Source: Alphaproteobacteria bacterium (GTDB taxonomy: Bacteria; Pseudomonadota; Alphaproteobacteria; Micavibrionales; CSBR16-224). From it: DNA of 32,041 bases. The translations under genes and the position numbers were made by a program. Within the stretch, counting starts at the first letter, position 1. The number at the start of each line of letters is the position of its first letter. The stretch spans positions 1 to 32,041 of the forward strand of contig JAJFGX010000111.1 in assembly GCA_021775895.1 (NCBI GenBank), in the 5' to 3' direction. This document shows, piece by piece, positions 2-21,664 of the stretch. Below the pieces are notes generated by a model, which saw only the letters and a list, made by a program, of their open reading frames with translations, searched no databases and was not told where the DNA came from.

Positions 2-1828
2 CTTGCCTCTAAATATTGCGGGGTTTTTGTTCATACTGATGGTCTTGGTAGCTCTGGTTCGACCTTTGCTCAATTTGGTAGTCGTATTATGACTCAAAAT
101 GGAGAAATAATTTCTGAAGGGATACGTAATAGCTTCAAAGATATGGTTTATACAAGCCAGATAGTCAAAGTTACTCCACCTAAAAACAAAGGTAATGAAC
201 CACATATTATAATAAAACATAGGTTTGCCGATAATTATTCTAAAGCAAAACAAGATGGTGCCGCGAAATGGGAATACGGACAGTTTAGTGAATTTGAAGA
301 AGAAATGCGTAATGAACTATTATGGCTGTTCGATTATGCGAGAAAAAATAATATTCAAGGCTTTACTGAGGCCTTGAGCGGTGGTGCAGATTCTGGTTAT
401 AACTCAACCAAAATCCGTTTGATGGTTGAACTTGCTGTTAGTATTTTAGGAATAAACGGCTTTATAAAAGCAATGCCTCACTTAAAATATAAGCAAAAAG
501 TGCTTGATGTTTATTTAGAGAGTGGAGAAGGTGCCGCAATCAAAGAAATCATGCACAATATATTAGTCTGCGTTTATATGGGGACGGATAATAGCTCTGA
601 TGATACTTTAAGAGCTGCAAAAACTCTCATAGAAGGTGGACAAGATGAGCAAGGCAATAGCTTTGAAGGCATTGGTGGACAGTTTCACTATCGCAATGTA
701 CAAAGATTAGTCGAAGTATATGCAGAGGTTTATTCTGGAGTAAATCCAAACAGTATAAGTGATAAAAAAGACACTGAAATAAGGCAAGAAATTGCTAAAA
801 TTCTACAAACAGATTCAAAAGACATAGACAAGCAAATTGAACAACTAAAAGCAAATTTTGAAGAAATTACTTATAATGTGCTAAGCGTTGCTAAAGAAGA
901 GCATAAGATTCCCTATGAGAATATCCAAGCTCGCTTACGTCAGGTATTAATCATGATGTTTGCAAATGTAGAAAATAAGCTTGCGATATCCAATCCAAAT
1001 TTAGATGAAGGTCGCAATTCTTACGCTACATGGGGTGGAGACCTACATGGCGGAATGATTAGCGGGAATGCTCATAAAAATAAACAACGCCAGCTAGACC
1101 ACATGTATATATTAATGGAGCATGGATTATTAAATGATGTAAAACCTATAAAAGCACTTTATTGGACTTTAAAAAATAAACCTTCAGCGGAATTGCAGCC
1201 TCGGAATAAAGATGGTGAGGTTACTCAATTTGATGAAGAGCAATTAGGTAGAAGCTTTGAGCAAATGGATATAATTTCTTATTATATGCTTTATGATAGA
1301 CCATTAGAGAATAATCAGCGTAAAAATAGTCCAATTGAAGTATTTAAAAAATGCCGTGCAAATCAAGCGTTTATACAAGATAGTCTTGAAATACTACATG
1401 ACCGTATTCGCCTGTCATACGATAAATGGGCACATGCTCAATTTAAAATCCATGGTAGCCCCGTTGCTGCAACATATGGACAGAATATTGACCATCAATC
1501 ATCAATGCGTACGCCAAATATTAGTGCAAATCATAAACCAGAGCTAGCACAGCTAGCTATATATGTAATAAAACAAATAGCTAAAAGAGATGGGACTGAT
1601 TTTGATAAACTTAGTGAAAGTTATAGCTACAATCAATTACTTGAATACGCTCTACTAGATAAAGACTTTGCCAATGCCTTGTCTTCAAAAATGTGGGAAG
1701 CTAACGCAACAGATGGACTGAAAATGAAAATCTCTAAGCTTTATTCATCTATAGAAGAAAATAATTTTGAGCTATTACTAGAAAATTCTACAATGGCTCG
1801 TATATTTAAAAAATGGACTAACGCCTAA
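2..1828 (+). CDS. nadE: Glutamine-dependent NAD+ synthetase, 5' partial (long NadE form)
   Basis: The frame is open to the first base of the window, so the listed ATG at 89 is internal and the gene starts upstream. Codons 1-50 (KYCGVFVHTDGLGSSGST, then NGEIISEGIRNSFKD) match the end of the nitrilase-type glutaminase domain of two-domain NAD synthetases. The synthetase domain follows: PP-loop LSGGADSGYNSTK, IPYENIQARLRQ, the NPNLDEGRNSYATWGGDLHGG region (family GNKSE...YGTLYGD), KPSAELQP, and a typical basic C-terminal end. It makes NAD+ from deamido-NAD+, ATP and ammonia released from glutamine, in the cytosol. The catalytic Cys of the glutaminase lies outside the window. The synthetase half is divergent, for example LAISNPNLDEGRNS where most members have LxTGNKSE. 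The stop overlaps the convergent downstream gene by 4 bp. Function is well supported by the order of motifs. Confidence 0.85.
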   Translation, partial: LASKYCGVFVHTDGLGSSGSTFAQFGSRIMTQNGEIISEGIRNSFKDMVYTSQIVKVTPPKNKGNEPHIIIKHRFADNYSKAKQDGAAKWEYGQFSEFEEEMRNELLWLFDYARKNNIQGFTEALSGGADSGYNSTKIRLMVELAVSILGINGFIKAMPHLKYKQKVLDVYLESGEGAAIKEIMHNILVCVYMGTDNSSDDTLRAAKTLIEGGQDEQGNSFEGIGGQFHYRNVQRLVEVYAEVYSGVNPNSISDKKDTEIRQEIAKILQTDSKDIDKQIEQLKANFEEITYNVLSVAKEEHKIPYENIQARLRQVLIMMFANVENKLAISNPNLDEGRNSYATWGGDLHGGMISGNAHKNKQRQLDHMYILMEHGLLNDVKPIKALYWTLKNKPSAELQPRNKDGEVTQFDEEQLGRSFEQMDIISYYMLYDRPLENNQRKNSPIEVFKKCRANQAFIQDSLEILHDRIRLSYDKWAHAQFKIHGSPVAATYGQNIDHQSSMRTPNISANHKPELAQLAIYVIKQIAKRDGTDFDKLSESYSYNQLLEYALLDKDFANALSSKMWEANATDGLKMKISKLYSSIEENNFELLLENSTMARIFKKWTNA

Positions 1829-17126: not shown

Positions 17127-18065
17127 TTATATCTTTGGTCTTTTTGCACTAGGTTGCCTAGATTTAGTGGCTTCTATCAACTGTTCTGGATTTTTATGAT
17201 CCATATGCTTAGCCATAGGTTCAGGAGCTTTCGCAAACTTACTAGTTACACTACCTACAACATTATCAACAGCTTTCATTATACTGTTTCCAATACTAGC
17301 TAAAGTAATTTCTTGAGATTCAGGTATCCTATCTTTAGGGATTATAATCTTATGTGTACCAAGTTCTATGCCCTCAATCCGCTTTAAAGAAATAGTGTCA
17401 TCTATCCCAAGGTCTGCAAGATTGCTACGGCTATAAGTATCTGGAACTGTGATAACCAAGCTACCATCATCATCGTACTGAAGACCTTTAACATTGCCCA
17501 TTCCAAGAGTGGTTTGTATTTCTGCAAACTCCATACGGTTATTTAAACTTCCTTGAGTTGAAACAGGTTCTTGTTGTGATGGTTCTTGTATATCTACTTT
17601 ATTGCCTGAATTATTCATATCTACAACGCCATTTCTTACACTAACCTGATTATCTTTTCCATTTTCAAGACGCATTAATGCAGCAACAGGCTTGCCTTCA
17701 CTACCATATGCAATAGACTCTCCTTCCATAGTGCTAGCTATATCTTCCAAAGATTTTCCTTGCCTCAATCCTTGCACTAAAATTTTTGACTGTTGCTCTA
17801 TATTATAGCCTTGAATAGGGTCTTGTGGTGTACCATCAGAATTCCATGTTCCAGTTCCACTTCCCCATCCTCTTTCTTTATCCAGAAATAAATTCTCATT
17901 TCCTCCGATAGCATAAACTTCCCAACCCTGCTCCATCAATTCATTAACAGTTTTTTTACTACCACCAACTTGGCTTGTTTCACCAAGCCTATAAGGATCA
18001 ACTGTCCAATTTCCAACGTCAGACTGAACTATATATGCGGATTCACAACCTGACTTCCTTGAAAA
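17127..18065 (-). pseudogene. C-terminal part of a frameshifted hypothetical gene
   Basis: The ORF track starts this at a TTG (17939, 270 aa), but protein-like sequence continues upstream in the same frame to a TGA at 18066-18068: ESAYIVQSDVGNWTV, then DPYRLGETSQVGGSKKTV, running into NELMEQGWEVYAIGG. No start codon with a ribosome site fits that extension, and the upstream 75-aa ORF ends just here in the other frame, so the two are best read as one gene of about 375 aa broken by a 1-nt shift. The visible protein is soluble and Gly/Ser/Asn-rich, with LVQGLRQGKSLEDIASTMEGE, a beta-rich middle (DGSLVITVPDTYSRSN, IELGTHKIIIPKDRIPE) and a basic tail. I do not recognise a family. It abuts ftsK tail to tail. 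Confidence 0.55.
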
Positions 18066-18256
18066 TCAGAGCTACCGCTTACATTTCCAGCAGAACTAGG
18101 TGTAACATCAGAAATACCAGATAGTGTATGTATATTTCCTGTTTTAGGATTGACCATAACAACAAAACCTGTTCCTGACCCTAGACTAGAAGTATCAATT
18201 TCCATTCCTGAGCTTTTAATTAAAATACTATCTCCAGTAATGCTGTTATCTGACAT
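18029..18256 (-). pseudogene. N-terminal part of the same frameshifted hypothetical gene (75 aa)
   Basis: A good start: AAGGGGA lies about 5 nt before the ATG. The protein is Ser/Gly/Thr-rich without a signal peptide (SDNSITGDSILIKSSG, then GSGTGFVVMVNPKTGN), and stops at TAG 18029-18031 after FQGSQVVNPHI. The -1 frame is open from 18065 onwards, so a 1-nt deletion (or frameshifting, or a sequencing error) anywhere in 18032-18065 would join it to the 17127-18065 ORF. It follows prfB on the same strand after about 126 nt; no strong promoter was seen between them. Confidence 0.55.
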
Positions 18257-18382: not shown

Positions 18383-19493
18383 TTAATTATCAAGCCCTGT
18401 TAGCTTGTGTGCAAGTGATGCATTTAAGAATGGGTCAAGATTACCATCTAGGACGCCTTGACTATTTCCAGTTTCAACCCCTGTACGTAGGTCTTTAACC
18501 ATTTGATATGGGTGTAATACGTAGGAGCGTATTTGATGCCCCCAACCAATATCGGTTTTCTGGGATTCACGATCCGCTTTTTCAGCATCTTGTTTTTGCA
18601 GTTCAAGCTCATAGAGCTTTGCTCTCAACATATTCATCGCAGTGTCTCTATTTTGATGTTGTGAACGTTGATTTTGGCAGGTAACCACAATACCTGTCGG
18701 TGCATGTGTAATTCGTATAGCACTATCCGTTGTATTCACGTGTTGCCCCCCTGCCCCTTGAGCTCTGTAGGTATCAACTCGTAGATCTTTACTATTAATT
18801 TCTATTTCAATATCTTCATCAACTACGGGAGATACCGCAATTGAAGCAAAGCTTGTATGACGCTTGGCATTTGAATCAAATGGTGAAATACGCACAAGCC
18901 GATGCACCCCACTCTCACTTTTCAGCCAACCATAGGCATTCTCACCTGATATTTCCAAAGTTGCTGATTTTATACCCGCTTCTTCACCATCATTTTGCTC
19001 TAGCAATGATATTTTATAGCCATGTTGCTCTGCCCAACGCATATACATTCTAAGTAACATTTCAGACCAATCGCAACTTTCAGTCCCGCCAGCCCCTGCA
19101 TTCACTTCAAGATAAGCATCATTTGCATCAGCTGTACCATTAAGCAAGCTTTCCAACTGCTGTTTTGCTACATCTTCTTGCAGATTGGATAAAATGTTTT
19201 CTGCTTCATTGATTAAATCATTATCATCTTCAAGCTCTGCTAGCTCAATTAAATCTATGTTTTCTTGCAGAGTATTTTCTATGTTTAAGATGTTTTCAAT
19301 TTGTCGCTCTAAACGGCTTTTCTCACGCATAAGCTTTTGTGCCTTGGTGCTATCGCTCCATAACTCTGGATCTTCAGATAATGCTGTTAGCTCATCAAGC
19401 CTAAGGACGGCATTATCCCAGTCAAAGACGCCTCCTTAGAAGCTTTAAAGCATCTCTAATCGCAACTACTATATTGTCTGTTTCTGCTTTCAT
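18383..19493 (-). CDS. prfB: Peptide chain release factor 2, with programmed +1 frameshift
   Basis: RF2 releases peptides at UGA and UAA stops. The ORF track shows only the 315-aa distal part; the gene starts at ATG 19493 (AAGGAT upstream), runs 23 codons to CGT CTT TGA C, and shifts +1 to continue [22 protein letters not shown]. The total is about 369 aa, as in E. coli (365). RF2 marks: the SPF recognition motif in [11 protein letters not shown] and the catalytic GGQ in [14 protein letters not shown]. It is divergent from kdsA. Confidence 0.96.
19421..19436 (-). promoter_or_regulatory. prfB autoregulatory frameshift site
   Basis: On the minus strand AGGAGG (19431-19436), three bases, CTT (19425-19427), TGA (19422-19424), C. 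This has the same geometry as the E. coli RF2 site (AGG GGG TAT CTT TGA C): an internal Shine-Dalgarno sequence 3 nt before the slippery CTT and the weak stop TGA-C. Low RF2 favours the +1 slip and so raises RF2. Confidence 0.95.
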
Positions 19494-19510
19494 TTTTTTA
19501 TCCTTTGTCT

Positions 19511-19566: not shown

Positions 19567-20421
19567 ATGATAAATCATCACGTAAATATTCAAAATAAAA
19601 TCATTATTGGTAACGATTTACCTTTTGTTTTACTTGCAGGGCCTTGTGCAATGGAAAGCCGTGAGCATGCCTTAGAAATGTCATCTGCATTAAAAGAAAT
19701 AACAGATAACCTTAATATCCCATTTGTCTATAAGACTTCTTTTGATAAGGCAAATCGCACGTCGATTAGTTCTGGTCGTGGTATTGGCATTGAAAAAGCC
19801 TTGCCTGTATTGGCAGAAATTAAAGAAAATTTAGGTTGCCCAATTGTCACAGACATACATACGCCAGAGCAGTGTGTTAGAGCTGCGGAAGTCGCTGACA
19901 TATTGCAAATACCTGCATTTCTATGTCGTCAAACTGATTTATTAGTTGCCGCCGCAAAAACAGGCAAAGTTATTAATGTAAAAAAAGGACAATTCTTATC
20001 GCCTAATGACATGATTAATGTTGCAAATAAAGTAACTGAAAGCGGTAATAGCAATGTAATGCTTTGTGAGCGTGGCACTAGCTTTGGCTACAATACATTA
20101 GTTAATGATATGCGTGCGTTACCAATTATGGCAGCAACTGGTCACCCAGTGGTTTTTGATGCTACACATTCAGTCCAACAACCCGGTGGCGCTGGTAATA
20201 CGACTAGTGGCGACCGTAGTTTCGTTCCACCATTGGCGAGAGCAGCAATAGCAGTTGGTGTTGCATCAATATTTATTGAAACTCATGAAGACCCAGATAA
20301 TGCAACCTCAGATGGCCCTAATATGATGTATTTACATGATATGCCTGCTCTTTTAGCTCAGTTAAAAGAACTAGATCAAATGATTAAGCCACAAACATAT
20401 AAACAAGCAGAAGCAGCTTAG
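19567..20421 (+). CDS. kdsA: 3-deoxy-8-phosphooctulonate (Kdo-8-P) synthase
   Basis: Condenses arabinose-5-phosphate with phosphoenolpyruvate to Kdo-8-phosphate, the first committed step to Kdo of LPS. The protein is 284 aa, exactly the family size. Motifs: [17 protein letters not shown] (res 20-36), [67 protein letters not shown] and [11 protein letters not shown]. It starts 74 bp from the divergent prfB. Its stop overlaps the stop of the last small-family gene by 4 bp. Confidence 0.97.
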
Positions 20422-20615
20422 TTGTTATTTGATGCACCTTTCATCCCAACGTAGCGAGTTGACATTTTTCCTGCATTCTTTTCATCTTGTGCATCAATAG
20501 CATCAAGTCTGGCATAAGCTGTTGCTGTAGCAGCTCTAGTTGAGCGATCAGCATAATAATCATTAAAGTCACTAGCTAATTTTGCTTTCATCATTTCTCT
20601 AATTTCTTTTGACAT
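20418..20615 (-). CDS. Small-family protein A (65 aa), conserved C-terminal tail
   Basis: The second ATG (20615) is preferred because GGAGA then lies 7 nt upstream; the ORF-track ATG (20621) is only 1 nt after it. The N-terminus [18 protein letters not shown] matches those of genes C and D. An Ala/Asp-rich helix follows, and the tail is [16 protein letters not shown], the family tail with substitutions. The nucleotide sequence of the tail differs from B and C at synonymous sites as well, so here the peptide itself has been conserved. There is no signal peptide or TM. Not recognised. It is the last gene of a four-gene same-strand array. Confidence 0.7.
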
Positions 20616-20631
20616 TTTCATTCTCCTTTAT

Positions 20632-20871
20632 TTAGTACTTATTACTATTTGAAGCACCTTTTATCCCAATATGACGAGACGACATGTTATTTTTTCTTTT
20701 CTCATCTTCCTCAATCTCTCTCTGTAGTCTCATAGTCTCTACAAGAGATAAGGCAACATTTGCTTTAGCATTAGTAGCATCATAACCATTACCATTACCA
20801 GATAAACTATTAAAATCATTTTCTAATTCAACCTTTAATCTATCTAATAATTCTTTATCTTTTTCTAACAT
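20632..20871 (-). CDS. Small-family protein B (79 aa), conserved C-terminal tail
   Basis: Start at the second ATG (20871) with AAAGGAT 7 nt upstream. The N-terminal helix MLEKDKELLDRLKVELENDFN resembles the family pattern (acidic/basic, xxLxxxFN). A Gly/Asn-rich loop (GNGNGYDATN) follows, then a charged helix, then NMSSRHIGIKGASNSNKY. The last 50 bp of coding sequence are nearly identical to gene C. It is 16 nt upstream of A in the transcript. Function unknown. Confidence 0.7.
   Translation of the reverse strand: MLEKDKELLDRLKVELENDFNSLSGNGNGYDATNAKANVALSLVETMRLQREIEEDEKRKNNMSSRHIGIKGASNSNKY
20636..20688. repeat. Copy 1 of a 53-bp direct repeat (tail of gene B)
   Basis: 52 of 53 bases match 20888-20940. 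The single difference (C versus G at position 45) is synonymous (Ser). The repeat covers the last 16 codons and the stop region of small gene B. Confidence 0.9.
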
Positions 20872-20886
20872 TTTCATTATCCTTTA

Positions 20887-21108
20887 TTACTTATTACTAT
20901 TTGAAGCACCTTTTATCCCAATATGACGAGAGGACATGTTGCCATTTCGTTTATTACGTTCTTCCTCTTTTGCTTCAAACTTTTCTATCTCCATATATGC
21001 TAAAACAATATTAGATAGAGTTTGCTTCCCATCTGTACCATAAGTGCCTTGGGCATTAAAAGCAGTCTCTAGCTTTTTTTTCATCTTATCACGCATTTCT
21101 TGTGACAT
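20887..21108 (-). CDS. Small-family protein C (73 aa), conserved C-terminal tail
   Basis: GGAG lies 8 nt before the ATG. The N-terminus is MSQEMRDKMKKKLETAFN, a Gly-rich turn (GTYGTDGKQ) follows, then a helix ending in a strongly charged stretch (EKFEAKEEERNKRNGN), then MSSRHIGIKGASNSNK. It has no Cys, no TM and no signal peptide, and looks like a small helical soluble protein with a positively charged tail. Spacing to B is 15 nt. Unknown function. Confidence 0.7.
   Translation of the reverse strand: MSQEMRDKMKKKLETAFNAQGTYGTDGKQTLSNIVLAYMEIEKFEAKEEERNKRNGNMSSRHIGIKGASNSNK
20888..20940. repeat. Copy 2 of a 53-bp direct repeat (tail of gene C)
   Basis: The same unit as 20636-20688, offset by 252 bp. 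Upstream of the unit the two genes are hardly alike at base level. Confidence 0.9.
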
Positions 21109-21122
21109 TTTTATTGCTCCTT

Positions 21123-21377
21123 CTATCTATTATTAGCACTTGTTTTTAAACAATGAGTTGTATTTGCTGTCTCAATAACAGACTTTTCTCCTGATTGTAC
21201 ATCTAAAGCATCAAGCTCAGCATATTGATGTATAATTGCCAACATATCACTATATGTATTCATGCTAAGGACATGATCTTCTCTAATAATTTTGCGAACA
21301 CCGTTTACATACTCCTTTTGCTCGTTAAACATAACCATAAGCTCTGCTTTCATTTCTTCTCTATCTTCTTTTGACAT
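21123..21377 (-). CDS. Small-family protein D (84 aa), divergent tail
   Basis: First gene of the array behind its promoter; GGAGA lies 7 nt before the ATG. The N-terminus MSKEDREEMKAELMVMFN is clearly that of A and C, but the end is HCLKTSANNR rather than SSRHIGIKGASN, so the tail has diverged or was never present. The middle is longer and amphipathic (EYVNGVRKIIREDHVL). It may be the oldest or a different-role member. Unknown function. Confidence 0.65.
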   Translation of the reverse strand: MSKEDREEMKAELMVMFNEQKEYVNGVRKIIREDHVLSMNTYSDMLAIIHQYAELDALDVQSGEKSVIETANTTHCLKTSANNR

Positions 21378-21535: not shown

Positions 21536-21664
21536 TTGACCAAATATTGGATTAATCCTACACCAATAAAAAAAGTGCCAGATAAAAAAACCAGAGCAAA
21601 AAAAATCGCTGACTTCAGACGCTTTGCCAAAGCACGCAACAAAGCGACTGGGTCAAGGCTCTAA
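21536..21664 (+). CDS. Small very basic ORF, 42 aa (too short for the ORF track)
   Basis: TTG at 21536 (or GTG at 21527, 45 aa) to TAA 21662-21664. The peptide contains KYWINPTPIKKVPDKKTRAK, then KIADFRRFAKARNKATGSRL, with about 17 Lys/Arg in 42 residues. It fills the gap between the small-gene array and the convergent GNAT gene, and its stop overlaps the GNAT stop by 4 bp (CTAA), the same junction style as other convergent genes in the window. Against it: an A+T-rich stretch can produce Lys codons by chance, the start codon is weak, and no clear ribosome site is present. Possible nucleic-acid-binding or ribosome-associated peptide; function unknown. Confidence 0.4.
   Translation: MTKYWINPTPIKKVPDKKTRAKKIADFRRFAKARNKATGSRL

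Follow-up and report, generated by a model that had tools for sequence, protein, structure and literature searches.

Shared gene ends and junctions in tandem arrays of an undescribed small-protein family of Micavibrionales point to short-tract recombination

The tandem lipoprotein (lpl) gene cluster of Staphylococcus aureus was reportedly treated by Tsuru and Kobayashi in 2008. In excerpts of a further source, the recombination units of the lpl genes span two adjacent tandem paralogues, exchange taking place in a common central block of about 130 nt (PMC9484751). The same excerpts describe the esaG arrays of S. aureus, tandem paralogues in which one homology block is made up of the gene end and the downstream intergenic DNA, and the tipC arrays of streptococci, with homology blocks at both gene ends; genes of both kinds are gained and lost by recombination between the blocks (PMC9484751). 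Gene conversion between diverged bacterial paralogues, leading to partial homogenisation, is also described in excerpts of the reports on RF1/RF2 (PMC4530459) and on a PE_PGRS pair (PMC1762029).

The array considered here lies in a stretch of 32,041 nucleotides, hereafter the window, and has in common with the lpl, esaG and tipC arrays both head-to-tail paralogues with diverged bodies and a DNA block consisting of a gene end and a spacer. Judged by analogy, it would belong to the same class of block-recombining tandem arrays, within a family not described before. Whereas exchange among the lpl genes is placed in the central block by the excerpts cited, the common block of the window array is tail plus junction. 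The esaG and tipC genes are given there as T7SS toxin immunity genes, whereas the window array has no identified toxin or secretion gene next to it and no sequence relation to them was found; membership in these immunity families is not supported by sequence comparison. Named lipoprotein families gave no match to the window family. The RF1/RF2 and PE_PGRS cases, as excerpted, also concern diverged paralogues that are partly homogenised, whereas in the window family this is limited to gene ends and junctions and is repeated in several genera.

The window spans contig C15 from end to end, in a 2.0 Mb genome (G000, 137 contigs) which an alpha_tmRNA located elsewhere assigns to the Alphaproteobacteria. 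Four small minus-strand genes, each identified as an ORF with a match to the family HMM, lie between kdsA on the plus strand and a GNAT-type acetyltransferase gene on the minus strand, in the transcription order D, C, B, A. The preliminary description of this DNA named genes A to C, to which gene D is to be added.

21123..21377, minus strand: gene D, 84 aa, first gene of the array, with a divergent tail (KTSANNR)
20887..21108, minus strand: gene C, 73 aa, tail NMSSRHIGIKGASNSNK
20632..20877, minus strand: gene B, 81 aa, tail NMSSRHIGIKGASNSNKY
20418..20621, minus strand: gene A, 67 aa, last gene of the array

Gene A and kdsA overlap by 4 bases at the 3' end of the latter, and a promoter-like TTGACA-17-TATGTT, a consensus match only, is found upstream of gene D at 21472-21444. 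Between gene D and the acetyltransferase gene there is also a possible TTG-start ORF of 42 codons (21536-21664, plus strand) with a strongly basic product (TKYWINPTPIKKVPDKKTRAKKIADFRRFAKARNKATGSRL). Elsewhere in the window, two minus-strand ORFs (17127-17939 and 18029-18256) have no Pfam match above the cut-off, and prfB (release factor 2; 18383-19500, minus strand) contains the classical in-frame CTT TGA C programmed frameshift site, an ordinary one with its TGA at 19422, about 23 codons in, and AGGAGG ahead.

The preliminary description had reported a near-identical 53-bp repeat in the tails of genes B and C with a single, synonymous change. This was borne out, as 52 of the 53 bases agree and the one difference, at position 20680 (C/G on the plus strand), gives TCG or TCC, both encoding Ser. 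The repeat comprises the last 17 codons common to C and B and two more bases. The similarity extends beyond the tails, to which the preliminary description had restricted it: when a 4-nt gap is allowed, the match runs on through the stop codon, a Shine-Dalgarno-like spacer and the start ATGAAAATG of the next gene, with 72 matches in 75 aligned bases between the two junctions. As the identity spans the region from the tail to the start of the next gene, the repeat unit is the junction module. The 4-nt indel shifts the stop, because of which gene B ends in an extra tyrosine.

20888..20940, minus strand: 53-bp tail copy in gene C
20636..20688, minus strand: 53-bp tail copy in gene B
20866..20940, minus strand: C-to-B junction module, with tail, stop, spacer TAAAGGATA and start ATGAAAATG of gene B
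20610..20688, minus strand: B-to-A junction module, with tail, stop, spacer ATAAAGGAGA and start ATGAAAATG of gene A

Gene A, which had been said to encode an identical peptide in spite of numerous silent changes, agrees in only 10 of 16 tail residues, its codon agreement being at chance, and the D-to-C junction lacks the B/C module. A scan of the genome for further 53-bp copies, as had been proposed, gave no third copy, the next-best DNA match having E=0.39. An exact 25-nt pattern of the 53-mer was absent from viral contigs and from GTDB-220 contigs, among which the species of the window was perhaps left out. A phage or plasmid origin was considered and rejected, with no tblastn match and no relative on viral contigs.

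The tails of B and C are identical in 17 of 17 residues, and 15 of 16 degenerate codons are the same where 6.8 are expected from local codon usage, i.e. that of the genes in the window (P=7.6e-6). The corresponding figure for the bodies, 11 of 16 codons against 8.8 expected, is at chance level. None of 5000 shuffles of codon columns gave an identical run as long as the longest one of the codon alignment (42 nt); a stricter shuffle, limited to columns with identical residues, reached this length in 155 of 5000, about half of these columns being in the tail, which leaves little room. Synonymous differences amount to 0.10 in the tail and 0.77 in the bodies. The bodies of B and C have diverged to synonymous saturation, and the array is old.

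On sequence grounds, genes A to D are members of a protein family not described before and, in the genomes searched, restricted to this order. A one-sequence search gave no relatives outside G000, and the idea of a species-restricted family was overturned by stepwise-built profiles (A2, A3 and A4), which revealed relatives. A 50-member profile matches 26 of 142 genomes of the order at E<=0.05, of which the sound ones fall in families f1, f3, f4 and f7, while several of the weakest, single matches located within longer ORFs, are doubtful. Samples of 385 genomes of the class and 399 of the phylum contained no match at E<=0.001 except G000, and the sole genome of the same genus compared (G001) had no match to the family. 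Delimited members have 61-127 aa (one of 144 in G003) and mostly lie in tandem, two to five per array, the copy number varying over this range between species of the order, a between-species comparison only; a fifth member in G000, E, is solitary (C129:144-368). No consistent family match was obtained in Pfam, NCBIfam, PHROGs, PADLOC or PDB sequences, and the first four gave no consistent sequence match to known immunity or defence families; their scattered weak matches, to one or two members each, were judged to be chance.

AlphaFold models of the four window proteins show, at modest confidence (pLDDT 67), two helices (3-22 and 26-56) followed by an unstructured tail. A fold search of the PDB with such a query model returned nothing at E<=0.001, and the matches at E>=5 were rejected as chance. 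The body is net negative in 48 of 57 members under 110 aa, and the last eight residues are net positive in all 57, a feature seen in 56% of 160 longer proteins encoded at these loci. The products are predicted to be small, mostly acidic helical hairpins; their C-terminal tail is basic and probably flexible. Orthologues within genus g17 have a dN of about 0.03-0.10 in the body and a dS of about 0.4-1.0, and the members are therefore selected proteins. The array follows a gene resembling, by eye, that of HMG-CoA lyase in G003, of family f1, and in several genomes of f3 (loci L087, L037, L075, L077, L078, L080 and L081), and is placed elsewhere in G000, G004 and G017; the site behind this putative HMG-CoA lyase gene may be the ancestral position.

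Each array tends to have a tail of its own, for instance SSRHIGIKGASNSN in G000, EQREAKERGxNKLEKN in G139, NTHxLSGKGL in G003, xLPGK or xMPGK in f3 and ANDRRxGNKS in G004, and tails group by array more strongly than the similarity of the bodies would lead one to expect (0 of 5000 permutations). When paralogue pairs whose tails are similar are pooled, codons agree 1.63 times as often as expected in tails, against 1.08 times in heads and 1.10 times in middles, pairs from one array not being independent. Spacers are likewise more similar within arrays than between them (P=3.6e-6). In G003, the first and second spacers are identical (AGGGAAGTAAA), the tails of copies 1 and 2 agree in codons (P=9e-4) and the module reaches 19 bases into the next gene, a geometry like that of B and C in an unrelated sequence. 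The five copies of G139 have similar spacers and tail P values down to 8e-4, and in G004 14 of 16 tail codons agree against 8.0 expected (P=1.3e-3). These P values refer to single pairs and carry no correction for the 216 tests; B/C survives correction, and the other pairs singly do not. Some long exact matches, at about -3..12 relative to a gene start, and several of the pairs were discounted as physical overlap of neighbouring genes.

Array-specific tails homogenised at the DNA level recur in four genera (G000, G003, G004 and G139), and copying of gene ends seems to have occurred separately in several relatives. Conversion of tails is not universal in the family: in genus g17 and in the G029_1/2, G118 and G020 arrays, tails are alike as peptides without DNA homogenisation, which suggests that the tails are also kept alike by selection on the protein. 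A single X-Y pair is present in G119 and G120 of genus g50, and G118 of the same genus carries X-Y-X-Y (L088 against L120 and L121); both Y tails of G118 read KMRMAVK where G119 and G120 have KMRLPVK, without homogenisation at the DNA level.

The tail/body contrast in synonymous differences is large among homogenised paralogues, in G003 (0.20 against 0.77) and G139 (0.25-0.36 against 0.61-0.92) as in B and C, and it is absent between orthologues, for which pooled pairs of genus g17 give a pS of 0.35 in tails and 0.42 in bodies. Since the RNA folds of the junctions are ordinary as well, the preferred interpretation is that the module was copied recently. In agreement with the proposal of recombination or gene conversion of a 3' module in the preliminary description, the likeness of B and C is probably best explained by short-tract recombination or gene conversion of the junction module, comprising tail, spacer and next start; the similarity includes the spacer, and independent arrays behave alike. 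A comparison of tail-minus-body identity between paralogues and orthologues was marginal (P=0.066).

Of the other explanations, the insertion or swapping of a gene body between copies of a recently duplicated junction, the tails not being converted at all, would leave an identical pattern, since a body swapped behind a fixed tail looks the same. Discordance of body and tail is known elsewhere in the family: G133b and G138b, from different genera, have bodies that are 58% identical and tails that are 12% identical (L079 1652-1882 and L122 941-1246). No donor body close to B or C was found in the genome, however, and such a replacement is considered unlikely.

A nucleotide-level function at the stop region, also put forward in the preliminary description, would preserve silent sites through RNA structure, translational coupling or a protein-binding site, and the module does hold the places at which coupling signals would be expected, namely the stop codon, the ribosome-binding spacer and the start of the following gene. 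Folding of the B/C junctions is nevertheless unremarkable (z of -1.1 and +0.7), and Rfam has no family there. Module sequences are unrelated between arrays, and the D-to-C junction lacks the one common to B and C. As the tails of orthologues are not slow at synonymous sites, constraint on the nucleotides is disfavoured; tails evolving about like bodies between species argue, at the level of sequence, against constraint and not against recombination. This explanation is accordingly very improbable.

Selection on the tail peptide alone, with the codon agreement of B and C arising by chance or codon bias, accounts for the tails alike in peptide and unlike in DNA (G020, G118) and for the basic ends of all 57 members. 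It does not account for the codon agreement of B and C (P about 8e-6 against local codon usage), for the pooled excess in tail codons or for a likeness that extends to the non-coding spacer, and carries hardly any weight. An assembly artefact at a short repeat, conceivable in so fragmented a genome, is scarcely credible, as the copies, which lie in intact ORFs, are set apart by substitutions and by a 4-nt indel, and a like pattern is found in other genomes, one of which (G003) is in about 10 contigs.

In the preferred reading of module copying, an old tandem array of paralogues would have seen its bodies drift apart to synonymous saturation, while homologous exchange between tandem junctions, by gene conversion or unequal crossing-over, would recently have equalised the B and C modules. 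Under selection for one common basic tail per array, exchanges between tails may persist and those between bodies disappear; such selection might exist because every member docks on a single partner or the members dock on one another. Whereas the array, the repeat with its extent, a low synonymous divergence that only the module shows, tails specific to each array and the recurrence in further genera are observed, we infer the exchange itself, its direction, the enzyme and any docking role. On the basis of charge and architecture, the tail may perhaps serve for docking, either to a common partner or to the acidic bodies of the sister proteins, a suggestion made tentatively. It is a more speculative idea that this order-specific family uses interchangeable basic tails as lineage-specific address tags, in a constant-tail, variable-body arrangement in which junction recombination would keep the tails common.

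The arrays would represent a natural and replicated case of concerted evolution limited to bacterial gene ends, in a family that none of the searched libraries describes. Its recurrence in several genera makes the question of why tails are common and bodies are not testable by comparison of species, and the common basic tail may hint at one binding partner for the members of an array.
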